Assembly: GCA_007694935.1 (NCBI GenBank)
Contig: REES01000094.1
Coordinates: 1-57,796, forward strand
DNA: 57,796 bases
Source of the DNA: Rhodospirillales bacterium
GTDB taxonomy: Bacteria; Pseudomonadota; Alphaproteobacteria; Rhodospirillales; Defluviicoccaceae
Direction: 5' to 3'
Made by a program: the position numbers and the translations under genes
Notes under the pieces: model-generated
Told to the model about the DNA's origin: nothing
What the model saw: only the letters and a program-made list of their open reading frames with translations
Database searches by the model: none
Part shown: in pieces, positions 590 to 35,665 of the stretch
How positions within the stretch are numbered: the stretch's first letter is position 1
Layout of the letters: every line of letters starts with the position of its first letter

Positions 590-929
590 TTCCGGTACCC
601 AGCGCCCTGATGGACCAGACGTTGGTCGCGGATCCTGGAGTGCCTGTCCAATGAGAATTGTCTGCTCCTGCTCGATTGAGCTGATCGGCACTCCGATGGA
701 CGCCCTCGGACCGCGGTGCACCGGGCTCGGGCCGTCCCACTCGCTTCCACGGTCGTCGTCGAAGGCACGGCCACGCCGTTCAACGGCCAGCGGGGCACAG
801 CAGCCGCGCCCCGTTCGAACGGCAACAGACGTGCCCCTCGCCGCCTTCGCGAACTTTCAACGATTGTAGCACCATAGTTGCCCGCATTCTGGCGACCTCG
901 TAAACCTCACCCCAACGCGCGATCGCAAC
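590..929. other. Intergenic stretch between divergent genes
   Basis: These 340 bases separate the reverse-strand HAD gene from the forward glycosyltransferase. I see no convincing protein, RNA gene or terminator. It should hold the promoters of both divergent genes, but I could not pick -35/-10 boxes with confidence. Confidence 0.5.
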
Positions 930-3066: not shown

Positions 3067-3190
3067 GGCGTCCCGGCGAACTGCAGACATACGTGCAAAC
3101 TGCGCGCAGCGACATTCATTTGAATGGAAATAAATCAACGTGCAATATTTTACCAAATTATATTTTCTAGATCTTCGGGCGCTCGCTGCC

Positions 3191-4237
3191 CTATATTCGG
3201 CCACCCTCCCGCCGCATGAGCTCCTCATATAGTCCAAGCAGCTTCTTCGAAACTGACGACCAACTCATATCCTGGACGAGAGCGCGACAACTTTCCCGGT
3301 CTCTGGGAGCTTCCATCGCGATGCGGATCGCCCGCCGAAGGCCTTGATCATCATCTGGAGCCACCCTTTGGAACCACGGCAGGCTGGTTGGCGTATCCAC
3401 ACCGCTGGCATTGGTCAGAATTGACGGCGTACCGGCTGCAAGCGCTTCAAACGGCACCAGTCCGAAGGCTTCTGAAAAGCTCGCAAGCACTACGGCGCCA
3501 GCGGCGGCGTAGGCCGATGTGAGCAGTGATGATGGATACGGCATCTCGCCTACGTATCGAACATTGTCTCCGCCCTCGACCAGACATCTGTTGTAATAGG
3601 CTTCATCCCCGATTGAACCGACTAGAACAACGCGATAGCCTTCGGCTTTGGCCGCACGGACTGTGCGGAGGATATTCTTGTTGGGCTCAATACTGCTGGC
3701 CGACAGAACAAAGTCACCCCGCATCCCGTATTTCTCACCAAACTTAATCTCGGATGCCATGAAAAACTCTTGACCAATTCCGTTCGGCACCACTCGTACC
3801 TTGGGCCCTGCTTCCGGGACCAACCTTGTTATCGTAGATCTTTCTCGATTCGTTAAAGCGCACACCAAATCCGCCTTTTTAATTCCTTCTGTATAGGTAT
3901 CCCACCGAGTCATGAAATCACGCCCCAGTGTTTTGTGCAGCGTGTAGCATACGAGCTTTATCTTGAGCGCCTCGATTTGGGTATCCACGAAAGGTATGAG
4001 AGGCGAGAAGACGGTAGCGCAACCGAGCTTGCTTGCCGCCTCTATGACGCGGAATCCCTCTTGACTTTTACTGAAATGGTGAATGATGTTATAATTCGAG
4101 AGTCGGTCATTCGGCAAGTCCACAATATTGACATCGACTCCAAGCTGGCGCAATGCAGCTTGAGTGGCCCTTATCTGAACCTCTAATCCGCCTCGTTGCT
4201 GAAATGCGGTGGCAAACGTCGTGAAACCAATCTTCAA
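3191..4237 (-). CDS. Glycosyltransferase family 4
   Basis: A 348-residue GT-B transferase on the reverse strand, start ATG at 4237. The N-terminus MKIGFTTFATAFQQRGGLEVQIRATQ has the glycine-rich loop seen in family-4 acceptor domains. The C-terminal domain carries VPNGIGQEFF, SASSIEPNKN, and the nucleotide-sugar motif SEAFGLVPFEALAAG. It converges on the sulfotransferase gene with about 125 bases between stops; that spacer contains a short inverted repeat (CATTCA-TT-TGAATG near 3115) too small to call a terminator. AT content is raised as in the neighbouring genes. The product probably adds one residue of the exopolysaccharide repeat; donor unknown. Confidence 0.85.
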   Translation of the reverse strand: MKIGFTTFATAFQQRGGLEVQIRATQAALRQLGVDVNIVDLPNDRLSNYNIIHHFSKSQEGFRVIEAASKLGCATVFSPLIPFVDTQIEALKIKLVCYTLHKTLGRDFMTRWDTYTEGIKKADLVCALTNRERSTITRLVPEAGPKVRVVPNGIGQEFFMASEIKFGEKYGMRGDFVLSASSIEPNKNILRTVRAAKAEGYRVVLVGSIGDEAYYNRCLVEGGDNVRYVGEMPYPSSLLTSAYAAAGAVVLASFSEAFGLVPFEALAAGTPSILTNASGVDTPTSLPWFQRVAPDDDQGLRRAIRIAMEAPRDRESCRALVQDMSWSSVSKKLLGLYEELMRREGGRI

Positions 4238-4869
4238 GGCCTTATACCTTCCGCCAGCACCGGCTTGTTCTACTAATACCCTTTAATTTGATTCGAATTT
4301 TCCCGGGAACAGGGTGAGGCACCACGGGGGCTTGGCCATTTTAAATCATCAGCGCATGCCAAAGATCGTGGAATTCGTAGAGAGGACGATGCGACTTTGG
4401 GCAAGAGGCCAACGTCTCGCTGCTCCCAGTCGGCCACCATCCGAGACCAGCCTTGCCCTGCCAAGTTCGCTTGGCGGACTTGAGCAACGGCTGAGCCAAT
4501 AGCATGCCTACGTCGGTACCCGAGGACCACATAACCCGCAAGCTCCCATAGACTGACCTCGCCCGTCGGTCAAACGTGCCCTTATGCGGCGCGGTCATCG
4601 ACATCTGCCAGCACCCCAGACACCGCCGCACCGCCGGCACCAGACCCACCGCGGCGGCGCAACCTGTTGACCTGATCCCAAAAAAGCGCCCTGGCCGCCT
4701 TCTGCGCCACTACCAATCAAGACCTTGTAACGGCCGGAGTCAAATTGAGCCCCTTAGAGCTGCAAGCGGCATCCGCCCCTTAAATCGGCCCTACCTTGGG
4801 CAAATACAAAGAAAAGCCTGCAAATACTCTATTCAGATGACGCTCAAAATACCACAGGAAGCACGGATA
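4238..4869. other. AT-richer spacer without a supported gene
   Basis: About 630 bases between two reverse-strand glycosyltransferase genes. Several short open frames exist on both strands (for example reverse 4341-4649 and forward 4576-4923), but none resembles a family I know, and the two reverse frames overlap in a way that could be a decayed gene with a frameshift. I would not annotate a protein here. It is likely recombination debris inside a variable polysaccharide locus. Confidence 0.45.
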
Positions 4870-5862
4870 TTACTTCATAGACGACGGACCGCTCCGACTA
4901 GGCTTAATACTTTTCACTGTTGAGCGATTTAGGATACCTTCATAAATATACCCAGACCAGAAAGAAACGTCCCAACGAGCCCGCAACAAGCGCCCCTCAT
5001 CATGATGAATCCGAAAAATCAAGGCTAATAATTGAGCCTCCACAATGGCCCGATAAATCCACCTTGGAAGGCCAAGCACAGTTTTACTTTCATGACTGGA
5101 TTCTTCTATTGAGGTTCGCAGTTTTGGGTCAAAATCGATCCAAAACATGCCGCGGCCGAAACGATATCCTCGCTTCAGGATCCAGCGAGGATCCAACTGG
5201 TAGGATTGAATAATATGGCAAACCAAGCTTTTCTGCACATGCCATGGGCGGTATCCAAGGCGATAAATCCGCAGCGTAAATTCAGATTCACTTCCCATCC
5301 GATACTGGCCTTTCGTGGGGCCGACGCGGTCATTAAACCTGTGGCCAGCATCAAATACCCGCTTACGAACAGCCATGTTGGGACCGATTATCCGACCTGG
5401 ATTGACGGGGCCTTCCGATAAGTCGTCACCAGTGTGGGCATAAACCGCTCGCGTTGGTATGTTCTGCAATAACCAGCTTGGCGGCGGAGGTTCAGGCCAA
5501 TGTGGTATTATGCTTCCCCCGAAAATATCAAATTCCTGGCAAGAATCGGATGCACGACGCATTTCAATCAGCCACCTAGGGTCAGCAATAATATCATCAT
5601 CGGTGAAGACAACGAGGTCACCCTCAAAATGCGGTATGGCCGTGTTCAAGGCGCGGTTTTTGCCTCTTTGGGGTTGATTCAGAATCTTGATGGGAAGTTT
5701 ATCTTGGTATGAGCTCAATATTTCACTAGTCTGATCGGTGCTGCCATTGTCGACTGCAATCAGCTTCCATCCACCATCTGGCGCCTCGAGCCGCGTCAGG
5801 GACGGAAGCATCAACGGCAGCGTTTCAGCGCCGTTATACGTGGCAAATACGACTGTCAGCAT
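4870..5862 (-). CDS. Glycosyltransferase family 2
   Basis: A 330-residue GT-A transferase on the reverse strand, ATG at 5862. It opens directly with the family-2 nucleotide-binding fold: VVFATYNG, then AVDNGSTDQT near residue 40 and the metal-binding VVFTDDDIIAD near residue 90. No amino-terminal membrane segment is present and the carboxyl third is basic. It acts in the cytosol on a sugar-nucleotide donor. A good sigma-70-like promoter at 6107-6135 points toward it. It is part of the same AT-richer polysaccharide segment. Which sugar it transfers is not visible. Confidence 0.88.
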   Translation of the reverse strand: MLTVVFATYNGAETLPLMLPSLTRLEAPDGGWKLIAVDNGSTDQTSEILSSYQDKLPIKILNQPQRGKNRALNTAIPHFEGDLVVFTDDDIIADPRWLIEMRRASDSCQEFDIFGGSIIPHWPEPPPPSWLLQNIPTRAVYAHTGDDLSEGPVNPGRIIGPNMAVRKRVFDAGHRFNDRVGPTKGQYRMGSESEFTLRIYRLGYRPWHVQKSLVCHIIQSYQLDPRWILKRGYRFGRGMFWIDFDPKLRTSIEESSHESKTVLGLPRWIYRAIVEAQLLALIFRIHHDEGRLLRARWDVSFWSGYIYEGILNRSTVKSIKPSRSGPSSMK

Positions 5863-5877
5863 TGGTTTGCGCGGCCC

Positions 5878-6036
5878 CTACGCCGAAGCGCTCCCCGCCA
5901 CAGGATCAGCATGGGGCACACCCGCGTGGTCGCGTTCGCGCTGTTCCCGGGCCGCCGCGCTGAGTTCGTCGCGAAGCTTATTGCCTGGCGCTTGCGGCGA
6001 AAGCGCCTTTCGTATCCGGGCAAGAGAGATCAGCAT
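5878..6036 (-). CDS. Possible 52-residue protein upstream of the GT2 gene
   Basis: A short reverse-strand frame, ATG at 6036 preceded by AGGG at a workable distance, ending 15 bases before the GT2 start. It lies downstream of the promoter at 6107-6135, so it would be on the same transcript. The peptide is basic and Ala-rich, with no membrane helix and no family I recognise. It could equally be untranslated leader. Listed because the promoter, ribosome site and spacing line up; existence is uncertain. Confidence 0.25.
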   Translation of the reverse strand: MLISLARIRKALSPQAPGNKLRDELSAAAREQRERDHAGVPHADPVAGSASA

Positions 6037-24316: not shown

Positions 24317-25828
24317 TCACACGCTGAAATCGGTGTCCGCCCGGAACGAGGCCGAGGCCGGACGCCATCCTCCGGGGCGACTGCCGGCGGCATCTGGAAA
24401 TACCCGCGGCAGCCGCACGGGCTCCGACAGAAGGCACCCGGCAACCGCATCCAATCCGTCATCCCGGCATTTCCCGCCCGGCCGCCACTCCCGCAACTCC
24501 TCCAGAAAGCGGGATTCGAAGACGCTTCGGTGCGCATGCAGCCGCCCGGCCGCCAGCACCGCATCGAACGCGTCGACAATCCGGATATCCTTGGCCCGCA
24601 CCGAGACGTGCTCGATCACACCGGCCCGGAGACCGGCCCGCTCCAGTTCCCGGCGCAGCAGGGTCGGCAGGAAGCGGCCGATGCCGTTGGTCTCCACGAC
24701 GACCGCCGGCAGGTGGAAGGTCCGGAGGAACTGGACCACCTGACGACAGAGCTGGGTCGCCTCGTCCACGCTGTCGACGATGGCGGGGTCGTGCGCCAAG
24801 TACCGCACCGCGTGCAGCCAGTAGTCGCCCGCTTCGTCGGAGAACACGGCGGCGATGACACTGGCATCGCCCTTGTCCGGCCGGCCGAAGGACGGGTCCC
24901 ACCAGCACGACGCCGACACCAGCCGCCGCTCCTCCAGCACCAGCCGGGCGGCGCCGTTCGCCTCGGTATAAACGAGGGCCCCGTCGTACCGGCGCAGGGC
25001 GTCCGCATCGAGCCGGCCATCGATGATACTTCGGGGGCGCAGCATCATCTGGCTCTCGAACCGGGCGGGTCCGGCTCGCAGCCGCAACGATGTGATCGCC
25101 TCGGTCGGGAACCGCTCGGGCCAGTTGGACCTGCCCTCGGGGTCAAGCAGCGGCACCTCCAGGCGCGAGAAGCCGGAAAGGAACGGCCCCTCCTCGCCGA
25201 TCGCGGCATACGCCTCCGAGCCGTAGATCGAAAACGGGTGGTGCGGGGTGCCGACGAAGAGCTGGGTCCCGCCGGGCACAAGGACGAAATCCAGCTCCCT
25301 GAGACGCTGACGCAGGTCGATCCGCTTGGCCAGGGTGTCACACGTGTTGGGCACCTCGACGTCGTCGCAGATGACGATATCGGCCCGAAGACCGGTCACG
25401 TTGGCGCCGATGCCCTTGGCCAGCATCGACGGGTCGCGCAGCTCGGCGGTCCGTCGTACCGTGAAACGGTCCGCCGCCCACTGGTCGGCACGCCGCGGCC
25501 TGAGTGTGCCGGTGCAGGGATGCCGTTCGATGATCCGCTTGACGTTCCGCACCATCTTGCCGGCCAGGGCATGGTCGGCCGCCACCACCAGGATGCGCAG
25601 GTTCGAATCGCGGAACAGCAGCCAGGCCGAAAACAGGCCGACCAGCGTCGACTTTCCCGAGTTGCGAAACGCCAACAGGAGCATCAGCCCCTGCCCGCCG
25701 CTCCATTGCCGCTCCAGCCACCGGGCGATCCTGACATGGAGTCCCGGCGTGGCCAGGCCCTGATTTCGGTTCCAAATCCAGACGAACTCGGTCAGCCCGA
25801 GACCACGGATACTCCGCTCTCGCCTCAA
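24317..25828 (-). CDS. Phage terminase large subunit
   Basis: About 503 residues from a TTG at 25828; the start is a guess, since the frame is open further upstream but would run into the preceding gene. The ATPase motor is complete: Walker A LAFRNSGKST (about residues 52-61) and Walker B IVICDDVEV (151-159). The nuclease half has WWDPSFGRPDKGDAS, VVETNGIGRFLP, and a terminal DDGLDAVAGCL, the acidic residues expected of a TerL nuclease. It translocates and cuts DNA at the portal. It is the last gene of the reverse-strand particle block. Intact catalytic sites argue against a dead remnant. Confidence 0.9.
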   Translation of the reverse strand: MRRERSIRGLGLTEFVWIWNRNQGLATPGLHVRIARWLERQWSGGQGLMLLLAFRNSGKSTLVGLFSAWLLFRDSNLRILVVAADHALAGKMVRNVKRIIERHPCTGTLRPRRADQWAADRFTVRRTAELRDPSMLAKGIGANVTGLRADIVICDDVEVPNTCDTLAKRIDLRQRLRELDFVLVPGGTQLFVGTPHHPFSIYGSEAYAAIGEEGPFLSGFSRLEVPLLDPEGRSNWPERFPTEAITSLRLRAGPARFESQMMLRPRSIIDGRLDADALRRYDGALVYTEANGAARLVLEERRLVSASCWWDPSFGRPDKGDASVIAAVFSDEAGDYWLHAVRYLAHDPAIVDSVDEATQLCRQVVQFLRTFHLPAVVVETNGIGRFLPTLLRRELERAGLRAGVIEHVSVRAKDIRIVDAFDAVLAAGRLHAHRSVFESRFLEELREWRPGGKCRDDGLDAVAGCLLSEPVRLPRVFPDAAGSRPGGWRPASASFRADTDFSV

Positions 25829-25833
25829 TGCCG

Positions 25834-26202
25834 TCAGCCCGGGTGCGTGTCGGTGATCGCCGCGATGGCCGCGGTGGCGTCGGAGATCAGCCGGTCGAGG
25901 TCGGCGTCGGCGTTGGCGTCGGGTCGCGCATGCTCGAGCGTCCGGGCCAACATCAGCAGGGCCTGCAAGTGATCGAGTGACGACCGGCACGCAGCCTGAT
26001 AAGCGGTGACCGCGCGCGGTTCGTCGGCGGTGTCGAAGCGCGCCGCCGTCGCGTAAACGGCGAGCGCCCGGTCGATCAGCGCGGGCAGCCGCCGGATCAC
26101 CAAGGCCGTAGCGTCGGCCACGCTCTCCGAACGGATGGGTCGGAACGGAGAAACCTCAGCCTTGTCGCGGGTGAACGATCCCATGCCTGCCGGCTCCGAC
26201 AT
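25834..26202 (-). CDS. Small phage protein before TerL, possible small terminase
   Basis: A 122-residue protein, ATG at 26202, ending just upstream of the terminase large subunit. It is largely helical and acidic toward the end, with no motif I can name. Its position directly before TerL is where podoviruses keep the small terminase subunit (T7 gp18 precedes gp19), so that is the leading guess. A spanin is unlikely because there is no signal or membrane segment. Confidence 0.5.
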   Translation of the reverse strand: MSEPAGMGSFTRDKAEVSPFRPIRSESVADATALVIRRLPALIDRALAVYATAARFDTADEPRAVTAYQAACRSSLDHLQALLMLARTLEHARPDANADADLDRLISDATAAIAAITDTHPG

Positions 26203-26236
26203 CTCCAGTTCTCCCGCCGTTCGTCGAACTACCGGT

Positions 26237-26488
26237 TCAGGGGTTCCGCCAACGCGAAACCGGCGCCGATGGCGGCGCCCCGGTCTCAATCCGGTTCTCG
26301 ATGCGGATCAGCCGTTCGTTCAGCGGACGCAACGCTTCGGCAAGGTCGCTCTTGTTCACACCGTTCATCGCGGCATAGTACTGCCGGTCATCCAGCTTCC
26401 GCAGCCAGTACACAATTCCTCCGAAGATCACGCCGATCAGGGGCACGACGACGAGGGCAAAGAACTGCCATAGTTCCGCTGTGAACAT
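26237..26488 (-). CDS. Holin-like single-helix membrane protein
   Basis: An 83-residue protein. AGGGG lies six bases before the ATG at 26488. Residues 5-28 form one strong membrane helix (FFALVVVPLIGVIFGGIVYWL), followed by a charged tail with a short coiled coil (LRPLNERLIRIENRIE). Size, topology and position between the tail fibre and terminase genes match the holin slot of T7-like phages. Holins share little sequence, so this is by topology and context only. Confidence 0.55.
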   Translation of the reverse strand: MFTAELWQFFALVVVPLIGVIFGGIVYWLRKLDDRQYYAAMNGVNKSDLAEALRPLNERLIRIENRIETGAPPSAPVSRWRNP

Positions 26489-26517
26489 ACGATACCCCTG
26501 AACCGCAGATGGGCCGA

Positions 26518-27168
26518 TCACCGATGGCGCATGGCCGCCGAGTCCACGCCCATGGCGGATCGCCTACCCGGTCGCCGAGTCGCCGCCCCCCCCAGGCGGC
26601 CGCGCCCCAATGTGATTTGCCGCACCCGCAAAACCCAGCCCCCCCCGGGGCGGGGCCCCCCCCCGGCCCCCGCGCCCCCCCCCCCCCGGGGGGGCGCCAC
26701 CACTTGGAGATTGCCCTCACCGTCAAAGCCGAGCAGACAACCGGCGCGAAGCTGGCGTTCGGGCAGCTGCAGAAGGGCGGCATGATCCGTCGGCGACAGC
26801 CGAACGGTCCGTGCCAAACCGGCAGCGACCTCCTGCAGCGCCGCGGTCAGGACATCGAGCTCGTCATTCAGCACCTTCGCCATCAGCATCCCGGATTCCT
26901 GGAAATCCGTAGTGCGCTGGATGGTCAGCATCCGCATCAAGGTGACCACCGCCCCGTCGGCAGGTGCTTGGGCGAAGCCGACCAGACCGCCGGAACTGCT
27001 TCCGGCACCGTGCACGGCATAGCCAGACCAGATCCGCTCTTCATTGATGAAGACGGCGAGGTTGTCTTCGCGGAAGATCGCGAACGAAAATGAGAAATCG
27101 GTCGTGGTGCCGTCAGCGACGTACTGGATGCGCGGCAAGACGCTGGCGATCTTGATGTGGTCCGTCAT
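26518..27168 (-). CDS. Phage tail fibre protein (T7 gp17 N-terminal type), probably frame-damaged at its end
   Basis: Up to 216 residues, ATG at 27168 after GGGAGG. The N-terminal 110 residues follow the T7-type fibre attachment domain: IQYVADGTTTDFSFSFAIF, then MLTIQRTTDFQESGMLMAKVLNDELD. After residue 150 the frame crosses a G/C homopolymer tract and becomes poly-Gly, then loses normal composition. Reading two frames together over the last 25 codons gives GGRRLGDRVGDP followed by AMGVDSAAMRHR, resembling the L-DP----DAA--- ending common in fibre proteins. That suggests a missing or extra base, either real or from sequencing. The receptor-binding part is very short. Confidence 0.7.
   Translation of the reverse strand: MTDHIKIASVLPRIQYVADGTTTDFSFSFAIFREDNLAVFINEERIWSGYAVHGAGSSSGGLVGFAQAPADGAVVTLMRMLTIQRTTDFQESGMLMAKVLNDELDVLTAALQEVAAGLARTVRLSPTDHAALLQLPERQLRAGCLLGFDGEGNLQVVAPPRGGGGAGAGGGPRPGGGWVLRVRQITLGRGRLGGAATRRPGRRSAMGVDSAAMRHR
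26638..26694. repeat. C/G homopolymer tract inside the tail fibre gene
   Basis: A run of alternating C and G homopolymers, including about 13 C followed by 7 G (26675-26694). It encodes poly-Gly in the reverse frame. It is unique in this window and a classic place for base-count errors or phase variation. Confidence 0.85.
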
Positions 27169-27195
27169 CGAGGCCTCCCGGCATGTCTCCCTGGA

Positions 27196-27645
27196 TCACC
27201 GATCAAGCAACGGCACTCGCCGAAGCCCTTGCTGCGTCAGGGTCAAGGCACCGCGCCTGAGACTGGCGGAGGATTCGAGGAGATTGCGCCGACGCAACCA
27301 CGCCGATTCCTCCAGGATTCGGCCGATCCTGAGGTTGGCGAGCTCCTGTGCATCGGCCGTCTCGCGGCGGGCCTCCGCGGCAAGGCCGGCCAGCACCGAC
27401 CGCGCCGAACCCTCCAGGGCCACACCGCCGGCGGCGAAGCGCGCCCGCTGGGTCGCCAAGGCTTCGGCGAGAGCCTGCCGGCGTTCCCGGTCCCGGATGC
27501 GTTGCTGCTGGCGGATCGTGTCGATCTCGCTCTCGGCCTGGCGATCCCGGACCGCACCGGCGGCCTTGCCGAGCCGCCGCTGGTCACGGACCTGAAGGCC
27601 GAGTTGGGCGGCGCTGACCGCCGCGACCGGTAGAAAACCTCCCAT
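27196..27645 (-). CDS. Coiled-coil phage protein, possible internal virion protein
   Basis: About 149 residues from the ATG at 27645 (GGGAG ten bases upstream). It begins with a short hydrophobic stretch MGGFLPVAAVSAAQLG and is then almost entirely helical and rich in Arg, Ala, Glu and Gln (RQQQRIRDRERRQALAEALA). Short Ala-rich coiled-coil proteins of this type follow the nozzle gene in podoviruses, in the place of T7 gp14, an ejected core protein. No counterpart of the long gp15/gp16 proteins exists here. Assigned by composition and position. Confidence 0.5.
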   Translation of the reverse strand: MGGFLPVAAVSAAQLGLQVRDQRRLGKAAGAVRDRQAESEIDTIRQQQRIRDRERRQALAEALATQRARFAAGGVALEGSARSVLAGLAAEARRETADAQELANLRIGRILEESAWLRRRNLLESSASLRRGALTLTQQGLRRVPLLDR

Positions 27646-27766
27646 GTGCTCAGGCTCCCTTGATCTGAAGTGGAATGCCACTAATAGTTGTACTCGATTG
27701 CGCGCTTTTTTCCCGAGGGGTGGTCCGACACACCCCCACGGCGGCTGCCGTCACGCCGGACAGGCT

Positions 27767-29677
27767 TCATCCGCTGCCGATCCCTTCGATGGTGGCAGAC
27801 AGCAGCGTGAACGGCAGCGGCGTCGCCTGTTGGATCGACCACAACGGGTCCGCCCCGCCCTTGCGCCAGCCAAGCAGGCTCAGGGACCTGACCCCGGTGA
27901 ACGGAAGCGGGCGCGGACCAAAGGTATCCCGGCCGAACTGGCGGAACGGCAACTCGATGGGGCCGCTGCCCACATCCACCCGCAACGCCTGGGTCTCATG
28001 CAGCCGGAAGCTGAGCGTGGTCGGCCGGAACGACGTGCCGACGGCGCTGACTCCGTTGCCGAGGCTGCCGACCGGCAGCGGGGTGATCACATGGGCGTAC
28101 GGCAGACCGGCCTCGACGACGCCGGCCGGCTCGGTCAGCTCGATGGCGCCGCCGGCCAACCAGGTGTCCTCCCGGAGTGCCCCGTCGGCGACAACCGTCA
28201 CCGCGCTCCCGTCCAGGTGATCAAGACCCGGCCAGATTTGCTGGGGGACGTCGCTCTCGGCGCGGATCGCGGCATCCAGGTTCAGGCGATGATCAAAGAC
28301 CTCGACACTCACCTGGCCGCTGCGGTCAATGAGAACGTAGACCGCGTCATCCACTACCGCGACCGACAGGAACCGTCCGGCGGTCTCCTGGAGGCTCCAG
28401 GCGGCGATCGACTCGGCCCGATAGGCGGTCAGGCTGCCGATGGTCCCATCATCCATGACCACGTGCAGCAGCCGGTGCCGTGGGTCGTAATCCATGTCCC
28501 GGGGCCGCTTAACCAAGTGGGCCGAGGCCAGGGCCAAGTCGGTTGCCTGATAGGCCTGCTCGACGTCGGTGTAGAGGAACTCGCGAAGCTGGCCGTCATG
28601 GCGCGGCACGAAGCACGTCGCCCCATCCACGTCCGCCGGCGGTACGGTGCGGTCGTCGGGCGAGCCGACCCGGGTCTGACGATGCACCTGGACGGTGGAC
28701 GGGGTCAGCGGGCTGCCGGTGACCATCCATTCCGCCCCGGTCGTGAACACCTGGAGGTGGCGGCCCGAGACCACCGCACGAATGGCGTTGCCCTGGTCCG
28801 ACAACAAAGGAAACTCGATCGCCTGGTCGTCCAGGCCTGTACCCTGGTCGAAATCGAAGGGCTCACCGGTTCGTGACAGCCACAGCCGGTTGGGCAGCCC
28901 GCGCGATCCGCCGATCACCAGTCGATCCTGGTGAAACGTCACCGACACCGGCCATCCGCGGACCGCGGAGAACGCCTGCTCGGTCCACTCGCGGGTCGGC
29001 TGGGTGTCGATCAGCGGCTGGCGGATCAGGACCGTCAATGCGGTCGGACCCTGGTGGCCGACCACCTCCAACTCGCGATCGCGAAGGCGGAGCCGGGTGC
29101 CGACATGCGCCGCCGCGAACACCGGCTGGGAGGCGGTCAGCACCGCCGTCGCACCCGCCGCGGTGGTGCTGGCGGCCACCGTCACCGCGTCATCCGTGAA
29201 CTTCCGATGGGGCTGCCGGATGCGACCGTCAGCGGTCGCCTTGAACGGTTGCGGCGTCACCTGCCAGTGGCCGCCTCCATCCCCGGCGATCTCATGGGGC
29301 GGAACATCCGGATGCACGACCAGCAGCGCGTTCCGGCCCTGGGTCCAGTTCAACTGGCGGAGTTGATCCTCCGTCCACGGCGTCGCCAGGCTGGCGATGG
29401 GAGCCCCTTCGCGGTAGATGGCCAAGTGCCGGTCGGTGAGGACCAGAAGGCAGGCCGGCTCGACGGCGGTGCTGAAGGCGATCAGGCGGCCGTCGCCGGC
29501 GGTGGCGGCCACGTGACGGAGCCCGGGACGCCTGGATACGCCGCCGCCCGGATGAATCACGACGTTGCGCAGGCGGGCCGCCCCGGAGGCATAGGCCCGC
29601 AGGTCGGTCCGGCCGGCCAGCCTGGGATCCAGTTCGCCGCCGGCGAAGTTCGTCTGGGTCAAGCGAAAGCGGGCCAT
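27767..29677 (-). CDS. Phage tail nozzle (T7 gp12-like tail tubular protein B)
   Basis: A 636-residue protein. It opens RLTQTNFAGGELDPRLAGRTDL, the typical start of podovirus nozzle proteins, then ARLRNVVIHPGGGVSRRPG, and is predicted to be beta-rich throughout (propeller-like). It is somewhat shorter than T7 gp12 (about 790). The start codon overlaps the adaptor gene stop by one base, so adaptor and nozzle are co-translated. In the particle it forms the hexameric tip of the short tail. The frame is uninterrupted. Confidence 0.83.
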   Translation of the reverse strand: MARFRLTQTNFAGGELDPRLAGRTDLRAYASGAARLRNVVIHPGGGVSRRPGLRHVAATAGDGRLIAFSTAVEPACLLVLTDRHLAIYREGAPIASLATPWTEDQLRQLNWTQGRNALLVVHPDVPPHEIAGDGGGHWQVTPQPFKATADGRIRQPHRKFTDDAVTVAASTTAAGATAVLTASQPVFAAAHVGTRLRLRDRELEVVGHQGPTALTVLIRQPLIDTQPTREWTEQAFSAVRGWPVSVTFHQDRLVIGGSRGLPNRLWLSRTGEPFDFDQGTGLDDQAIEFPLLSDQGNAIRAVVSGRHLQVFTTGAEWMVTGSPLTPSTVQVHRQTRVGSPDDRTVPPADVDGATCFVPRHDGQLREFLYTDVEQAYQATDLALASAHLVKRPRDMDYDPRHRLLHVVMDDGTIGSLTAYRAESIAAWSLQETAGRFLSVAVVDDAVYVLIDRSGQVSVEVFDHRLNLDAAIRAESDVPQQIWPGLDHLDGSAVTVVADGALREDTWLAGGAIELTEPAGVVEAGLPYAHVITPLPVGSLGNGVSAVGTSFRPTTLSFRLHETQALRVDVGSGPIELPFRQFGRDTFGPRPLPFTGVRSLSLLGWRKGGADPLWSIQQATPLPFTLLSATIEGIGSG

Positions 29678-30246
29678 CAGCCGCGCGCCTCGATCAGCAC
29701 GAAGTTCTCGATCCGGGAGGGAGTGTCTTCCTGGGCATCGGCGAGCTTGGCGCGCCGCACTTCGTCATCGGCAGCCCGGCTGAGGCCGATCCATCGGGAC
29801 GTGCTGTCGGTCAGCGGGATGCAGAATTCCGCCGCCAGCCGAGCGATCAGGGCGGCCACGAAGAACGGCGGAAACATGGCCTCATCGGTGTCGGCCAGGT
29901 AGGTGAGGACCACTTGGTCGACGTTGGTGCAAAGCGTCCGCCCTTCAATGCGGTAGGTGAGCCCACGCCCGCGGCCCGGACGGCCACACGAGATCACGCG
30001 AAGGCAATCCGCCGGCAGGGCGAACGCGTTGGCATAATCGGCGACCGGGGACGTGGCCAGCCTGGCGAGGCTTCGCTGCCGGGTGGCAAAGTTCCACGGA
30101 TGGGCCGACAACAGGGCGTCTCGCACCACCGGATACAGCGAAGCCGCCACCTGGGCCTCCACCGTACCTTCACTGAAGGAACTGATGGGGCGGGCGCCGA
30201 TCTTCACCAGCGCCCGGGAACACAAGTCGATCGCCGTCAGTGCCAT
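29677..30246 (-). CDS. Phage head-tail adaptor (T7 gp11-like tail tubular protein A)
   Basis: A 189-residue protein, close to T7 gp11 (196). MALTAIDLCSRALVKIGARPI at the start, then RDALLSAHPWNFATRQRSLARL and a late FVAALIARLAAEFCIPLTDS, are the pattern of the gatekeeper/adaptor family that binds the portal. ATG at 30246 is preferred over an upstream frame extension. It overlaps the nozzle gene by one base. Family assignment is strong. Confidence 0.85.
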   Translation of the reverse strand: MALTAIDLCSRALVKIGARPISSFSEGTVEAQVAASLYPVVRDALLSAHPWNFATRQRSLARLATSPVADYANAFALPADCLRVISCGRPGRGRGLTYRIEGRTLCTNVDQVVLTYLADTDEAMFPPFFVAALIARLAAEFCIPLTDSTSRWIGLSRAADDEVRRAKLADAQEDTPSRIENFVLIEARG

Positions 30247-30373
30247 CCTGATATCTTCCCTCACCCTTCGCCGTCTGCCTTGACGTGCGTGGTCCGATCC
30301 ACCGCCGCCCCCGCCGCGGCTTCGGCCTTCCCGAGAGTTCCAGGCCCGGGAAGGCCGCTCGCCGAGGTCCGGC

Positions 30374-30643
30374 TCAATCGGTGTCGGTGGTGCCGAAGGC
30401 GGTCAGGTCGGACACGTTAACGGTTCCACCGGCGTTGGTGCGGACCACGAAGACGCCGGCGTCCGGAGTGGCCGCCGTGTTGACGTTGGCCAGGATCATG
30501 TCGCCGACCCGCAACATGTCGGCGGCAGCGTTGAAGTAACCTGTCGTATCGACGATGGTAGACGGGTCCGCAGTCGTGTAATGCCACAATGTAAACCCGT
30601 TGGCATAGGCCAGGACGCTCAGATTCCGTGCAGTGTAGGCCAT
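30374..30643 (-). CDS. Small phage head protein, possibly a decoration protein
   Basis: An 89-residue protein, start ATG at 30643, 14 bases after the capsid gene. Sequence such as LSVLAYANGFTLWHYTTAD and MLRVGDMILANVN, with GVFVVRTNAGGTVNVSDL, suggests a compact beta fold. Its position between major capsid and adaptor genes matches small head proteins of BPP-1-like podoviruses, where a decoration (cement) protein lies next to the capsid gene. No enzymatic motif. Confidence 0.6.
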   Translation of the reverse strand: MAYTARNLSVLAYANGFTLWHYTTADPSTIVDTTGYFNAAADMLRVGDMILANVNTAATPDAGVFVVRTNAGGTVNVSDLTAFGTTDTD

Positions 30644-30657
30644 CACTCGGTCACCCC

Positions 30658-31476
30658 TCAGTTCTCGAGACACACTAGTGGAACAATGCCGTTGACATCG
30701 ATCAGGCAAGCCCCCTGGCTCATCATGTTGTTGATGAAGTGGGCGGCGCGATCACCGTGCCAGGTGATGTCGGTCTTGACGTCGGCGCCGATGGCGTGGC
30801 CGATGGCCGTCTTGTGGTACCAAAAGCAGAGCCGGGTGCCCTCCGCCGACTTCGGCAAACCGGAGTGGGGGAGCCACAGGGTTCCCAGCCATCGTTTCGC
30901 CTGGGTTCCCTTCCAGGGCAAAGCGTCTTCACCGACATAGTCGGCGTTGGCGAATTCCTGGATGGTGAGCAGCTGGCTCCATTGTTTCCAGCCGACGACG
31001 GCAAACCGCTGACCATCGTCCGGGACATCGTTCTCGCCCAAGGTCTCGAACGCGCTCAGGACCTTGTCCCGGGTCAGGCCGTCGGTGGCGGTGACGGTGG
31101 TCGCGGCCGTCGCCAACTGATCGATGATGAGCTCGTCGGTCTTGCGGCCGAGCGCGTAGGCTCCGGCCTTGGCCACGACCTGCTGCTCATTGATGTTGGT
31201 CTTGAGTTCGTCGAGCCGATCGACCCAGTCGCCGGCGTAGAAATCCTGGAGAACACAATCAACGGCATCATGGTCGACGTTCATCACGGGAACCTTGCCA
31301 TGCCGTGCCTTGGTCCCGGCAATTCCCTTGCCGACCTTCTGGAAGGTCGTCGTCGATCCGATGATGTTCTCTTTGGTTCGGACCGTGTTTCTCAGCTTGG
31401 ATCCCATCTGCTGATACTGAAGGTGGACCTCTGCTTCAAAGTTCTTGATGAACGCTTGTTCGACTTGCGTCGACAT
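30658..31476 (-). CDS. Phage major capsid protein
   Basis: A 272-residue protein from the ATG at 31476, which has AGGAGA seven to nine bases upstream. The N-terminus EQAFIKNFEAEVHLQYQQMGSKLRNTVR is the N-arm of podovirus-type HK97-fold capsid proteins; later segments include RKTDELIIDQLATAA, RFAVVGWKQWSQLL and FWYHKTAIGHAIG. No protease gene is visible, consistent with a T7-type capsid that does not need cleavage. It is smaller than T7 gp10 (345). It follows the scaffold gene by 244 bases, which hold no gene. Confidence 0.85.
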   Translation of the reverse strand: MSTQVEQAFIKNFEAEVHLQYQQMGSKLRNTVRTKENIIGSTTTFQKVGKGIAGTKARHGKVPVMNVDHDAVDCVLQDFYAGDWVDRLDELKTNINEQQVVAKAGAYALGRKTDELIIDQLATAATTVTATDGLTRDKVLSAFETLGENDVPDDGQRFAVVGWKQWSQLLTIQEFANADYVGEDALPWKGTQAKRWLGTLWLPHSGLPKSAEGTRLCFWYHKTAIGHAIGADVKTDITWHGDRAAHFINNMMSQGACLIDVNGIVPLVCLEN

Positions 31477-31720
31477 TTGCGGGTCTCCTGTCTGGTGAAC
31501 GTGTGTCGGGAGCGGCTCCGCTCCGCAGACCCGGTTGTGGCGTCGCCGCCGGGCGTGGGGCTTGGTGGCAGGGATCCGGACCCGCCGGGCCTGTGGCACT
31601 GGCCGGGTTGCCCGGCTCGGGGCGATGGGTCGGCCGACTTTCGGAGTCGCACCCCGATCACCTCGGGGCACACCGCCGACCCTGGGGTTCGACCGGGTTC
31701 ACCGGTCTTCGGTTGACAAG

Positions 31721-32515
31721 CTACTCCGGGTACAGGGCACGGAAGCCCTCCCGTACCTGTGCCACGACGGCGGGGTCGTGGTCGCGCCAGTAACGCGGAT
31801 CGCGCATCAGGACCTTGAGGCCGGCTTCGCTCACCGGGCTCGCCATCGTCGCGCCGTCCTGGACCAGGGCCGGTTCCTCGTTGACCATCATCCGGTGCAT
31901 GGCAACGACACCCTCATAACTGGTGCAGAGGGCGTCAAACACCGGCGCCGGCAGAGCTTTCCGGCCCCACGCCGAGAGCTGTCGCGACACCTGCTGCCAC
32001 GGCTCCGCCCCGCCGAACCGCTGGACCAGACGTTCCGTCTCGCGTTCCGCTTCGCTGACGGCCGCCAGTTCGGCCACCAGGGGCTCCAGCCGTTCGGCGG
32101 CCAGGTCGTAGACGAGCTGGGCCTGCTCGTTGGTGAATCCGGCCGCGTGCAGCCGGCCCCTGATCGCCGGCATGTCCGGATCGTCGTGCAGCAGGGGGCT
32201 CTCGAGATTGATCCGGTAATCGTCCGGCGACCCGGGCACATCGCCGGCTCGTGGTCGGCCCAGCCGGCGCTCCAGCTCGGCGTATGATTTCAACAGGGCG
32301 TCGGTTCTGATCTCACCCTTGGTCGGGTCCCAGAACTTCTCCGGCACGTTTTCCGGTCTGGCGGCCCGGGGTAGAGCTTCACCGCCCGGCTCGGCGTCGG
32401 TGACCGATTCCGGCGCGGCGTCGAACTCCCGCACCGGCGCGGGCGGCTGGGCGCCGGCGGCGGGCGTCGCCATCTCGGCATCGAGACCGTCGAAACCACC
32501 GCGATCAGTCGACAT
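31721..32515 (-). CDS. Phage capsid assembly (scaffold) protein
   Basis: A 264-residue acidic protein. The first 60 residues are Ala/Pro/Glu-rich, followed by PEKFWDPTKGEIRTDALLKSYAELERRLG, a signature of phage scaffolds that lie upstream of podovirus capsid genes; the remainder is helical. Scaffolds guide procapsid assembly with the portal and then leave. The ATG at 32515 overlaps the stop of the Bbp19-like gene by 11 bases. Confidence 0.78.
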   Translation of the reverse strand: MSTDRGGFDGLDAEMATPAAGAQPPAPVREFDAAPESVTDAEPGGEALPRAARPENVPEKFWDPTKGEIRTDALLKSYAELERRLGRPRAGDVPGSPDDYRINLESPLLHDDPDMPAIRGRLHAAGFTNEQAQLVYDLAAERLEPLVAELAAVSEAERETERLVQRFGGAEPWQQVSRQLSAWGRKALPAPVFDALCTSYEGVVAMHRMMVNEEPALVQDGATMASPVSEAGLKVLMRDPRYWRDHDPAVVAQVREGFRALYPE

Positions 32516-32858
32516 CGGCTTGCTCCTGCTTGCGAAGGGCTGCGGGGTTCACCCGGCCGCGCGGCCCACCGTGGCCGCGCTTCACCAGGTTGGTGACGTA
32601 GTTGACGAGCTGGCGCTGGCCTTCCAGGAACCGGAGGGCCTGATCGGAAACGTCGGGGCCGACGGCCCGCTCGACGGTGAGACCGCGAAGGTGGCACAGC
32701 ACGGTCTCGCCGTCGTCGGTGCGGAAGCATCGGGCGAAGGCCCGCGCCAGTTCCGGGCCGGCCGGGCGGTCCGGCGCGGCCGCGGTCCCATCGCCGCAAT
32801 CATCGGCGCGCGACGGAGCGGTATCCAGCCACGCCCATCCGGTTTCAGACGGCGGCAT
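32505..32858 (-). CDS. Bbp19-like phage protein
   Basis: A 117-residue protein from the ATG at 32858, overlapping the portal stop by 14 bases. The core (LARAFARCFRTDDGETVLCHLRG, then ALRFLEGQRQLVNYV) follows the F-TDDG--VL-HLR ... EGQR-LV pattern of the Bbp19 family named from Bordetella phage BPP-1, encoded beside the portal. Function is not established. It is translated between portal and scaffold. Confidence 0.6.
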   Translation of the reverse strand: MPPSETGWAWLDTAPSRADDCGDGTAAAPDRPAGPELARAFARCFRTDDGETVLCHLRGLTVERAVGPDVSDQALRFLEGQRQLVNYVTNLVKRGHGGPRGRVNPAALRKQEQADVD

Positions 32859-34362
32859 CGGTGATGACCTCCCACCCCAGGGCCGCACCGTCAGGTTCCG
32901 GCGACGCCGGCTCGGTCCGCATCAGCGTGGCCGGAACGCCGAGAACCTTGCCCAGCCACCGGCTGGCGGCCCGCTGGTCCGCCACGGCCAGTGCCTCCGG
33001 GCCCAGGTCCCGAATGAAGCTCAGCCACAGCATGGTGTTCTGGGCTTCCTGCTGCGCTTCGAAGGGGCCGCGGACGGCACGGCAGTGAACCTCCACCAGC
33101 CGGCCATCGATCGGGAGATCGGCGATCTCCCCGCGCCGCACCAGGATGGCGTGGGCCCGGGTCAGCAGCGGCAACAGCAGCTCCGCCTGCAATCGGGCAA
33201 AGGTGGCACCGAAAATCCGGGCGACCTCTGCCGCCCGTTCCAACACTTCGGTGGCGGTCATGCGCGGGCCGTGCACCTCGCCGAGCTGGTCGACCAGCAG
33301 CGCCCTGCGGATCCGGGCGCGGAGCTGTTCCAGCACCAGTTCCGAAACATCGAACCGGCCGGGCGCCGGCAGCGGCGTCAATCCTGAGGACCCCACCGCT
33401 TTCGGGATGATGGTGCCAGGCACCAGCTTGATGGTGGCAGGATTGAGCACGCCGTCATCGTCCGCCTGCCAGATGCCGGTGGCGGCGATCGATGCGTTCT
33501 TCAGCACCAGCTCCACCACCTTGTTGGCGGTCTTGATGTCAGGCAGCGCCTTCATCACCGGAGACCGGCCGTAGACCTCACCCGGCGCCTTGAGCCAGCG
33601 GAAGTTGATGAACGGGGAGGTCCGAAAGCGCCCCTGCGCCAGGACCATGGGCTCCGCCGCGGTCCCCGCCGGCTCGACGAAGGCGAGATAGTGGCAGGCC
33701 GCCCCGTCCGGGATGACCGCTTCCACCACCGGGACGCGCCGATCCTCGGCCAGATCGGCGAGCCGCGCCACCTCCCCTCGGGCCGCCGCCGCCGGAAACC
33801 GCTCCGCCAACTGTTCGGCCGGGAGCGCGGTCACCCGAAACGTGGTGTCGGCGCGGCCGGTGCCACTGTCCTCGACGGCGACCTGGAAGAGCGGTACCGC
33901 CGCGAAGTGGAAGGCCGACGGCTCGCCCGGTCTGGCCTCCTCGAAGGCAAGCGAGGCGGTGCCCGCGGTCACCAGGTCGAGCAGGCACTGATGCAGCTCG
34001 GTCGCGAGGTTGGAGCGGTCGAAATGGGCGAGCATGATCCGGGTGCTGCGTTCAAGCTCGCCTGCGAGGTCGCGCTCGTCGGCGACGCTCACGTCGCTCC
34101 CGGGCACCAACCTGAACCAGGGGGCAAACGACGGCGTGAGCTGGCTCAGGAGGCTGGCCGCCAACTGATCGATGGCATCGGGGGCGGTGCCGTCGAACAG
34201 GCGGTCGCCGCGACGGTCGCCTGGGGACCCGCTTGCCCCGGCGCCCGCTCTCAACGGCAGCGCGAACTCGTAACATTCCTGCCAGATCCGCTCCCAAGGC
34301 GCGCGATGCGCCTTGGCCCGGCGAAACCGGTCACGGACGGAACGGGGCGACAGTGCCGACAT
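32845..34362 (-). CDS. Phage portal (head-to-tail connector, T7 gp8-like)
   Basis: A 505-residue protein (T7 gp8: 536). Recognisable parts are RAKAHRAPWERIWQECYEFALP near the start, LFDGTAPDAIDQLAASLLSQLTP, WFRLVPG, YGRSPVMKALPDIKTANKVVEL, and the long C-terminal helices. I prefer the ATG at 34362 (GAGG five bases upstream) over 34413, because the apparent promoter lies so close to 34413 that a transcript would barely include it. It forms the dodecameric DNA channel onto which TerL docks. No disruption is seen. Confidence 0.88.
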   Translation of the reverse strand: MSALSPRSVRDRFRRAKAHRAPWERIWQECYEFALPLRAGAGASGSPGDRRGDRLFDGTAPDAIDQLAASLLSQLTPSFAPWFRLVPGSDVSVADERDLAGELERSTRIMLAHFDRSNLATELHQCLLDLVTAGTASLAFEEARPGEPSAFHFAAVPLFQVAVEDSGTGRADTTFRVTALPAEQLAERFPAAAARGEVARLADLAEDRRVPVVEAVIPDGAACHYLAFVEPAGTAAEPMVLAQGRFRTSPFINFRWLKAPGEVYGRSPVMKALPDIKTANKVVELVLKNASIAATGIWQADDDGVLNPATIKLVPGTIIPKAVGSSGLTPLPAPGRFDVSELVLEQLRARIRRALLVDQLGEVHGPRMTATEVLERAAEVARIFGATFARLQAELLLPLLTRAHAILVRRGEIADLPIDGRLVEVHCRAVRGPFEAQQEAQNTMLWLSFIRDLGPEALAVADQRAASRWLGKVLGVPATLMRTEPASPEPDGAALGWEVITDAAV

Positions 34363-34415
34363 GATCACCTCAGCTTGCAGATCCTCGGGAGCATCGGCCG
34401 GCCGACGCCTCATTG

Positions 34416-34448
34416 TTCCTATATGTACGCCTTTCTTCCTATAGTCAA
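34416..34448 (-). promoter_or_regulatory. Promoter and repeated TTCCTATA motif before the portal gene
   Basis: On the reverse strand TTGACT (34448-34443) is followed after 17-19 bases by CATATAGG, a plausible sigma-70 promoter with a good -35 and a weaker -10. TTCCTATA occurs twice on the forward strand (34416-34423 and 34436-34443), exactly 20 bases apart, flanking the spacer. Such spacing places both copies on one face of the helix, as in an operator. Confidence 0.5.
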
Positions 34449-34885
34449 GACGGCACGGCACCCTGCTCGCGCAGGTGACAAAACAGCTGCCATGGGGTGA
34501 CGATCCGGCGGCGCTGGATGCCGAGCACCCGCTTGACCACCTCGACACAAGTCAACGGCGCCACCGGGACCCAGCTTTGGCGATGATCGACGCGCACCCG
34601 TGTCCGGATTGCCGTACAGTCGTGATTTCGGCACCAAGAGAGCAACTGGTCGGTCTGAACATCTTCAAGGATGAACGTATCGATTTTGTGCGATAGCGGG
34701 TCGATCAGGATCCATCCTTGCGGCCTTCGAAGGGAGACGAAACAATGTCGAAAACCCGGCTTGAGCACGCGCAGGCAGGTCAGACTGGTGGCATCCGTGA
34801 AGACGACGATCGCTTCGTCACCTGACGTCACACCTCGGACCTGTTCTGAGTGGCGCTTGACTCCGCTCTTGTCTTTCCAGAACAT
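34445..34885 (-). CDS. Unknown phage-block protein, possible permuted papain-fold enzyme
   Basis: A 146-residue protein at the promoter end of the particle block. No family is certain. Visible features are GFRHCFV (His47), GWILIDPLSH (Asp62), and LTCVEVVKRVLG (Cys113 at the start of a helix). The order His, acidic residue, then Cys before a helix is that of circularly permuted NlpC/P60-type (YiiX/YaeF-like) papain folds. If right, it could be a cell-wall or amide hydrolase, the only lysis or entry candidate in the block; but a structural role is as likely. It has its own upstream region and is divergent from the S24 regulator. Confidence 0.55.
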   Translation of the reverse strand: MFWKDKSGVKRHSEQVRGVTSGDEAIVVFTDATSLTCLRVLKPGFRHCFVSLRRPQGWILIDPLSHKIDTFILEDVQTDQLLSWCRNHDCTAIRTRVRVDHRQSWVPVAPLTCVEVVKRVLGIQRRRIVTPWQLFCHLREQGAVPS

Positions 34886-34978
34886 GGCGCGTTCCGGCTC
34901 CGGTCCATGCTGTGGGCGCAGAGGTAAGTTCCGCTCCCCGGGACGAGGTGCCGGCCCGGGGCGGCGCTGTCAAGGCAC

Positions 34979-34998
34979 TCCTAGGTCTATTTTCCTAG
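34979..34998. promoter_or_regulatory. Candidate operator in the S24 regulator control region
   Basis: TCCTAG occurs at 34979-34984 and 34993-34998, and the sequence between makes CTAGG-N8-CCTAG, a perfect five-base inverted repeat. It lies 35 bases before the regulator's ATG inside a 147-base divergent region. It resembles the TTCCTATA copies before the portal gene. An autoregulatory binding site is a reasonable guess. Confidence 0.45.
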
Positions 34999-35032
34999 TG
35001 CAATTCGTGTCCCCATCTATGACACTGTTCCC

Positions 35033-35665
35033 ATGTTCGGCCATTCGGATATCTGGCGCTCCATCGACAAGCTGGCGGCTGCGCACGGGCTCTCGGCGTC
35101 TGGCTTGGCCCGCCGCGCCGGTCTCGATCCGACCACCTTCAACAAGAGCAAGCGCATCACCCGGGAGGGCAAGCCGAGGTGGCCCAGCACCGAGAGCATC
35201 TCCAAGATTCTGGATGCCACCGGGGCCTCCATGGGCGAACTGGTAACCCACATGTACGATGGCGCGATCCCGGAGGGGCTTCGGACGTTTCCGGTATTGG
35301 GCATGGCGCAAGCCGGGCGGGAAGGATACTTCGATGATGCCGGCTATCCCACCGGGACGGGTTGGGATGACATCCCGTTTCCCGACGTGGGTGATCCTCA
35401 TGCCTATGCCCTGGAGATCAGCGGCAACAGCATGGAACCCGTGTACCGGGACGGCGACATCATCATCGTGTCGCCCCAAGCCAGCATCCGCCGCGGCGAC
35501 CGGGTGGTCCTGAAGACCCGGGACGGCGAGGTCATGGCCAAGGTGTTGCGACGCCGCTCGGCGAGGCGGTACGAACTGCAGTCCGTCAGTGCGGAGCATG
35601 ACGACCGCTCCGTGCCGATCGAAGAGGTCGAATGGGCGGCACGCATCCTGTGGGCGAGCCAGTGA
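35033..35665 (+). CDS. XRE/S24 (LexA/CI-like) self-cleaving transcription regulator
   Basis: A 210-residue repressor. Residues 1-70 are a helix-turn-helix domain (LSASGLARRAGLDPTTFNKSKR). The C-terminal S24 peptidase has the Ala94-Gly95 cleavage site (GMAQAG), Ser133 in GNSMEP and Lys170 in VMAK; the 37-residue Ser-Lys spacing equals that of LexA. So it should cleave itself upon RecA activation or another trigger. Close relatives are frequent chromosomal genes in alphaproteobacteria, so it need not belong to the phage block, but it is divergent from it and shares a motif with its promoter. There is no Shine-Dalgarno sequence before the ATG; possibly leaderless. Confidence 0.85.
   Translation: MFGHSDIWRSIDKLAAAHGLSASGLARRAGLDPTTFNKSKRITREGKPRWPSTESISKILDATGASMGELVTHMYDGAIPEGLRTFPVLGMAQAGREGYFDDAGYPTGTGWDDIPFPDVGDPHAYALEISGNSMEPVYRDGDIIIVSPQASIRRGDRVVLKTRDGEVMAKVLRRRSARRYELQSVSAEHDDRSVPIEEVEWAARILWASQ

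Follow-up and report, generated by a model that had tools for sequence, protein, structure and literature searches.

What does a compact run of podovirus-type head, tail and packaging genes do on a bacterial contig, among ordinary host genes? The question is raised by a locus in the 57,796-nt stretch of contig REES01000094.1 (assembly GCA_007694935.1, genome G000) from a Rhodospirillales bacterium of the Defluviicoccaceae; the whole of this stretch is referred to here as the window. A sequence-only reading of this DNA had preferred a podovirus-based module resembling gene transfer agents (GTAs) to a trimmed prophage. Comparison with related genomes supports that preference: the block has many relatives, is under purifying selection and has a host-like phylogeny, and in some relatives it lies split in two far-apart modules. 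The element is probably, at a rough probability of 0.7, a domesticated, podovirus-derived, GTA-like particle. It is called a GTA-like element rather than a GTA, random packaging and transfer being predictions here.

Organization of the Element

Thirteen minus-strand open reading frames (ORFs) form one run from 24317 to 34885 in the ORF listing, and family matches bear out the sequence-only reading of this run as particle and packaging genes. From the 5′ end the operon encodes p146, the portal, a Bbp19-like protein, scaffold, capsid, a small head protein, a gp11-like adaptor, a gp12-like nozzle, a coiled-coil protein, a short T7-type fibre, a 94-aa holin-like protein, a 151-aa protein and TerL. 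Family profiles point to a T7/BPP-1-type head, a short tail and a packaging ATPase. Support is strong for TerL, portal, capsid, nozzle and the gp11-like protein, fair for scaffold, Bbp19, fibre and the small head protein, and weak or absent for the p146, coiled-coil, 94-aa and 151-aa genes; profile searches gave the 151-, 94- and 146-aa products no named family. The extent first given to the block holds for these thirteen genes, but the unit reaches on to a divergent S24 gene and, with S24 included, is ~11.3 kb long in one piece. Its features are as follows.

24317..25990, minus: TerL, large terminase of T7 type (phrog_38, 2e-75; NCBIfam termin_lrg_T7, 1.4e-122)
25834..26289, minus: p151, small protein just upstream of terL (phrog_31793, 3e-6, annotated without function)
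26237..26521, minus: putative 94-aa holin-like protein (one hydrophobic segment, read by eye)
26518..27168, minus: short tail fibre or adaptor, 216 aa, T7-fibre N-terminal type (phrog_1640, 3.9e-28, residues 12-123)
27196..27681, minus: coiled-coil protein, candidate internal virion protein (phrog_418, internal virion protein, weak, 0.0026)
27767..29677, minus: tail nozzle, gp12-like (phrog_376, 1.8e-128)
29677..30264, minus: tail adaptor, gp11-like (phrog_394, 4.9e-52)
30374..30709, minus: small head protein (phrog_18004, 6.4e-21, annotated without function)
30658..31476, minus: major capsid protein, 272 aa (PF19821, 5.1e-82; start set by alignment A1)
31721..32515, minus: scaffold protein (PF05396, 5e-14)
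32505..32888, minus: Bbp19-like protein (PF25181, 2.8e-15)
32845..34548, minus: portal or head-tail connector (PF12236, 5.3e-119)
34445..34885, minus: p146, first operon gene, conserved (in the S24-portal interval; alignment A2)
34886..35032, no strand: presumed divergent promoter/operator region, with TTTCCTAGTGCAAT at 34991-35004
35033..35665, plus: S24/LexA-type repressor, putatively self-cleaving (A94-G95, S133, K170; PF00717, 2.8e-22; HTH_26, 4.5e-6)

Several starts deserve caution. The listed capsid ORF is over-extended to 31671; homology starts at 31476, leaving a false head of 65 residues. The portal start likely lies nearer 34362, most loci showing homology that begins at about residue 47-85, and the TerL start is uncertain, with homology from about residue 44-66. 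Homology of the small head protein begins near residue 16-23 in most loci, and the true starts of the other block genes are probably also downstream of their longest-ORF starts. Homologues of p151 (31-54%) occur near terL in some relatives, making it a candidate small terminase or packaging partner. The 94-aa protein, 91% identical in a congener, gave no firm family in Pfam-type and PHROG profile scans. Its membership of c1, a small protein following terL in 28 other loci, was not established (20 residues, single-comparison E 0.016).

Distribution and Synteny

The sequence-only reading had held that a block present only in this one strain would tell against it; relatives were found instead in genomes of the family, the order and the class. 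Eight of the 11 family genomes, the window's own among them, have the portal. The capsid was matched in 153 of the 297 order genomes (five matches weak, at E>1e-30), as a single match in 139 and as more than one in 14 by a hand count. In the class it is found in 90 of 385 genomes, where identities form two groups: 59 genomes reach at least 55%, usually with one copy (G028 has a broken copy and G325 one in two pieces), and 31, with best matches of 36% or less, look like carriers of phage homologues. The element also occurs in small genomes of 0.9-1.5 Mb. In the named collection 473 of 486 pattern stretches encode a relative; carriers among the best 80 of the 473, which were fetched, include Defluviicoccus, Azospirillum, Niveispirillum, Skermanella, Magnetovibrio, Terasakiella, Roseospirillum, Caenispirillum, Rhodovibrio, Ferruginivarius, Haematospirillum and others. 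At least 595 stretches in IMG/VR encode a capsid relative. The capsids of eighty IMG/VR contigs classed as viral resemble that of the window at 68-84%, and many of these contigs are short, with several identifiers resembling those of isolate genomes; databases may therefore count a host element as virus, and some short 'viral' contigs may be host elements.

Gene order, which the sequence-only reading had proposed to compare, was the same for the genes found in 19 of the 20 first-fetched loci, L060 being rearranged and several stretches being truncated or missing some genes. The small head gene follows the capsid gene in all 20, and TerL is 57-76% identical in 16, with no match within the fetched stretch in the other four. 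Modules are reordered in L060, L125, L133 and in the 0.9 Mb genomes. A recurrent address is indicated by lysK, ubiD or ilvE, named by reading their sequences, at most 6 kb from S24 in 22 of the 44 distinct loci with at least 2.5 kb beyond S24; the window's genome and a congener carry the element at a different address, next to NMT1-tsaE. In the A. lipoferum group and Niveispirillum, the S24-portal-scaffold module stands apart from the capsid-to-TerL module. On single contigs the two are separated by 276 kb (A. lipoferum Sp59b), 314 kb (Azospirillum sp. TSH64) and 231 kb (Niveispirillum SYP-B3756). Elsewhere in Azospirillum the element is unsplit, for example at the A. brasilense locus L108.

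Relatives also carry insertions. Matches listed for their insert ORFs include glutathione transferase, GGDEF/EAL, methyltransferase and transposase domains, and T7_gp14 for 3 of 70 such ORFs. Variable inserts in L048, L055, L071, L125 and others, mostly in the scaffold-capsid interval, encode peptidoglycan-binding-like and low-complexity proteins, sometimes in several copies, and the fibre gene has two or three matches per element in L250, L055 and L095. In Azospirillum cavernae (L244) and A. griseum (L245), a prophage lies inside the portal gene at the same place, near residue 360. The former, at 1.4-18.2 kb of its locus, has an integrase, a GpA-type terminase and, judged by eye, portal and capsid genes; the integrase of the latter is 96% like it. 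The portal gene may serve as an attachment site or a switch.

Descent and Selection

The two evolutionary checks that had been proposed, comparison with the host phylogeny and the ratio of nonsynonymous to synonymous substitution rates (dN/dS), both favour a maintained and largely inherited element. The element tree was built from five joined proteins in 54 genomes (capsid in 54, nozzle in 52, gp11 in 51, portal in 45, TerL in 43) and the host tree from RpoB alone in the same genomes. The two are correlated with a Mantel r of 0.813, against a highest value of 0.486 in 999 permutations, and they share 22 of 51 splits, against at most 3 in 200 permutations. Twenty of the 33 well supported element splits are present in the host tree. 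An earlier comparison was discarded, the longest ORF having been antisense to rpoB in several high-GC genomes.

Median dN/dS, taken from pairs at 90-99.5% amino acid identity that share loci and so are not independent, is 0.05 for S24, 0.07 for the portal, 0.10 for TerL and scaffold, 0.12 for nozzle and gp11, 0.13 for the capsid, 0.19 for the small head protein (with ranges up to 0.59) and 0.22 for p146; Bbp19 gave no pair. A first run with medians of 0.14-0.33 was discarded as saturated, with high GC at third codon positions. The 129 nozzle and 130 gp11 matches all lacked in-frame stops.

The Presumed Switch Region

The S24 gene starts 147 bases from the operon on the opposite strand. S24 was found in 78 of the 148 loci compared, with 67 distinct genes among them; in 65 of the 67 distinct loci, S24 is divergent from and upstream of the portal operon. 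Between S24 and the portal lie p146 (65 of 65 loci) and, in 58 of 65, a conserved protein, c0. The locus test showed c0 absent from the window and from eight other distinct portal-bearing loci, and a search without positive control did not find it in the window's genome. For c0, PHROG gave 0 of 21 and neither a PDB sequence match nor a fold match was obtained; that it is an activator is a guess. In p146, H47 and C113 are invariant in 23 sequences (alignment A2), and homologues occur in 50 Vibrio phage records. The p146 model (pLDDT 86) has no PDB match at E<=0.001; its best, a weak resemblance to vasohibin at E 0.11, was not used.

The residues A94-G95, S133 and K170 of S24, presumably those of LexA-type cleavage and catalysis, are kept in most of the 77 aligned loci, among which some genomes are counted twice (A94 in 70, G95 in 71, S133 in 68, K170 in 68). 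S24 is putatively a self-cleaving repressor, and it belongs to the unit. Of 63 distinct regions upstream of S24, 36 have a TTCCTA-type motif, where shuffled sequences would give 0.6; the count is descriptive, since inspection of these very regions had revealed the motif. The motif lies 40-44 bases from the S24 start in 34 of the 36, and in the window the sole match above threshold is at 34991. Matches in L082, L085, L086, L097 and L118 fall among genes read as atp genes.

Integration, Replication and Lysis

Neither integration nor replication genes had been seen in the block, and this holds more widely: no integrase or phage replication protein was found among 47 window proteins scanned (17 of the block and its neighbours and 30 further ones), the genome outside the window not having been searched for integrases. 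Replication genes were likewise absent from the 13 block genes and from the 25 listed of the 51 Pfam families matched by the 70 insert ORFs of relatives. Two query integrases, of limited reach, matched only the prophages nested in L244 and L245 when compared with the 148 loci, window included. Attachment-site-like direct repeats, whose presence around the block the sequence-only reading had named as telling against it, were not seen flanking the block. The window holds no tRNA, and a plasmid search gave no match to its block or to the two modules of one Azospirillum.

That the block has no lysis gene stands if the 94-aa gene is left uncounted, but it does not extend to the genome. Another contig of this genome (C125, positions 3-4181) carries a GH108 endolysin, a GTA_holin_3TM protein (PF11351) and a large protein with a weak beta-helix match, beside an FtsH-like gene. 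The endolysin-holin stretch and a neighbouring gene of the congener align to this contig, which is possibly a second locus of the particle. In relatives, c5, weakly like cell-wall hydrolases (20 loci; PF07486, E 0.013), and c24, a holin with three transmembrane segments (8 loci; PF11351, 2e-15), lie in or near the element. The GH108 endolysin is not supported as a general partner: it was found in 9 of 55 genomes, of which 8 are among the 38 element carriers and one is among the 17 without a capsid match.

Relationship to Phages and Known GTAs

The nearest phage records to the capsid are MT838907 (62%), Pelagibacter phage EXVC031P (48%) and then Vibrio phages and Dunaliella viridis virus SI2 (~31%); the nearest phage TerL is at ~30%. 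MT838907 ('Bacteriophage sp.', human faeces) is an unannotated 5.1-kb fragment whose portal is 51% like the window's. To judge from these two proteins, it is probably the same element from another carrier, and carriers or their particles may therefore occur in gut samples. EXVC031P Hodr shares the capsid, portal (34%), nozzle, gp11, small head, Bbp19, scaffold and fibre genes, as well as a c24-like holin (38%) and a c5-like gene (31%). However, it is a complete 34-kb genome with many more genes and has no match to TerL, p146 or S24, so the element is a mosaic. The Vibrio phages of ~32 kb share the same head and short-tail gene lineage. A second, distant podophage-like stretch in the window's genome (contig C3) has its own terminase, a p146-like gene, portal, scaffold, capsid and tail genes; with a capsid at 39-41%, a portal at 30-31% and a different terminase, it is by these comparisons a separate element.

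Among known GTAs, that of Rhodobacter type (RcGTA; Rhodogtaviriformidae, type I) is likewise alphaproteobacterial and phage-derived, keeps particle and packaging genes and is largely vertical, and a GTA_holin_3TM gene lies in or near the present element in some carriers. RcGTA has a long siphovirus-like tail, whereas the tail genes of the element are of podovirus type, and its GTA_TIM protein (PF13547) was not found in the window's genome. GTA_TIM is present in 36 of 385 class genomes, none with the element capsid; a hand calculation that ignores kinship puts chance co-occurrence at ~5.5 genomes. Table 3 of PMC6821227 gives no RcGTA-like clusters for Azospirillales, Rhodospirillales, Acetobacterales and Kiloniellales. 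BaGTA (Bartogtaviriformidae, type II) is also alphaproteobacterial, with a compact structural cluster, and is described as co-evolving with its host (PMC9662315). The comparison used a proxy in place of Bartonella genomes: Sulfitobacter phage pCB2047-C, with a TerL that falls inside the BaGTA group, gave no meaningful match to any element protein. FpGTA of Faecalibacterium, from another phylum and likened here by description, not sequence, has in one strain a second operon (fibre, receptor-binding protein and lysis genes) ~125 kb away (PMC12946183). Among the titles and opening abstract lines listed by searches of openly licensed PMC texts, preprints not included, there was no description of a podovirus-type GTA in Rhodospirillales or Azospirillales.

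Particles have been reported from Azospirillum. PMC3899980, citing Boyer et al. 2008, states that A. lipoferum and Azospirillum sp. B510 treated with mitomycin C release particles containing ~10 kb of DNA, and describes the particle DNA of A. lipoferum 4B as random host fragments. Since the element is order-wide and has a putatively cleavable repressor, it is a candidate source of the A. lipoferum particles, whose release by mitomycin C fits the kept S24 cleavage residues.

Proposed Mechanism and Alternatives

On the reading preferred here, S24 would repress the operon until DNA damage activated RecA and so led to S24 self-cleavage. The operon, plus c0 in most relatives, would then give a small head on a short nozzle, and the T7-type terminase would fill the head with host DNA by the headful, without site choice. 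Lysis would depend on genes beside or away from the operon (an endolysin and a 3TM holin), and the fibre and nozzle would deliver the DNA to kin. In keeping with a GTA, the element is of tailed-phage origin with particle and packaging genes kept and is inherited largely vertically under purifying selection, with real conflicts. As to self-propagation, the modules are 231-314 kb apart in some relatives, and the window's unit is in one piece. A wider proposal, to which we would give about even odds, is that this is a third independently tamed alphaproteobacterial GTA family: short-tailed, old, spread over many families on the Rhodospirillum/Azospirillum side and the 0.9 Mb genomes, switched by DNA damage via its own cleavable repressor, complementary to RcGTA, and the maker of the A. 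lipoferum particles.

A number of observations weigh against the preferred reading. Its evidence is gene comparison, with host-DNA packaging, particle formation and delivery being predicted. A capsid match is missing from 144 of 297 order genomes and the portal from 3 of 11 family genomes, two of them less than 90% complete, and transposase domains lie within the element of some relatives. Eleven of the 33 element splits with good support contradict a host split that is itself well supported, so that, given the tree correlation, descent dominates with some exchange or tree error. In-frame stops were found in the capsid (35 of 140), small head (19 of 136), portal (6 of 105), Bbp19 (4 of 94), TerL (2 of 102), scaffold (2 of 108), p146 (2 of 83) and S24 (1 of 78) matches; many are probably due to over-extended query starts, the cases not having been separated one by one. 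The operator motif was not found upstream of the moved capsid modules. Finally, HK97-type prophage regions were proposed in 2012 as the source of the Azospirillum particles (PMC3899980), and the published particles come from A. lipoferum 4B, other strains and Azospirillum sp. B510, with 4B and B510 not among the genomes compared here.

The main rival is a domesticated particle with another job: killing of kin, a PBSX-like particle that packs host DNA without delivery, or a device for DNA release or defence. Such a particle would show the same gene content and conservation, and PBSX is cited as a case of this kind in PMC12946183; the fibre, moreover, is short and the ejection apparatus amounts to weak internal-virion-protein matches. 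This explanation is nevertheless unlikely: a pure killing tail could do without terminase, portal, scaffold and nozzle, yet these are under purifying selection, and gp11- and gp12-like tail proteins are kept, as is a fibre in most loci. The retention of capsid, portal, scaffold and terminase also agrees with the sequence-only reading that a tailocin, a tail without head and packaging genes, is unlikely.

A true temperate podophage lineage with a favoured attachment region, of which the window would hold a trimmed copy, is quite improbable. Phage origin is certain, given EXVC031P and other homologues, the capsid relatives in IMG/VR are numerous, and some element splits conflict with host splits. 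Yet the marks of such a phage, an integrase with attachment sites and replication genes, were not found in the scanned proteins and loci, the nearest annotated phage capsid is only 48% identical, and an element that is mostly single-copy, has a host-like tree and lies in some relatives as two distant modules is not what such a lineage would leave. A decaying relic of an ancient prophage might explain why the window has no c0 and its block no clear lysis gene, why the p146, 94-aa and p151 genes vary, and why the portal gene is interrupted in two Azospirillum species and some genes have in-frame stops. Such decay is scarcely credible beside dN/dS medians of 0.05-0.22, nozzle and gp11 genes free of in-frame stops and retention in 0.9 Mb genomes.

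Surroundings in the Window

The 30 further window proteins scanned are ordinary host proteins, UvrD/AddAB-type repair proteins included. To the left of the block lie a methyltransferase and a TauE family gene and, further out, TsaD and porphobilinogen deaminase; to the right are an NMT1-like gene and TsaE. GC content is 0.635-0.718 across 24-35 kb, compared with 0.684-0.731 at 20-24 kb and 0.656-0.715 at 35-40 kb. Far from the block, positions 1001-6000 have a GC content of 0.53-0.56, against ~0.70 elsewhere, and hold glycosyltransferases and a sulfotransferase, with an O-antigen ligase adjoining; they are a possible surface-polysaccharide island.

Biological Significance

Alphaproteobacterial GTAs have been treated as two types, and the RcGTA type is reported absent around Rhodospirillum and Azospirillum. 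If the GTA-like element is what it is taken to be, Alphaproteobacteria would have tamed phages for DNA packaging once more, this time with another body plan and probably another trigger. The Azospirillum particles with ~10 kb of DNA, reported in 2008, would then have a concrete gene target in culturable laboratory strains, and a short-tailed particle may be the means by which these bacteria exchange fragments of their genomes.

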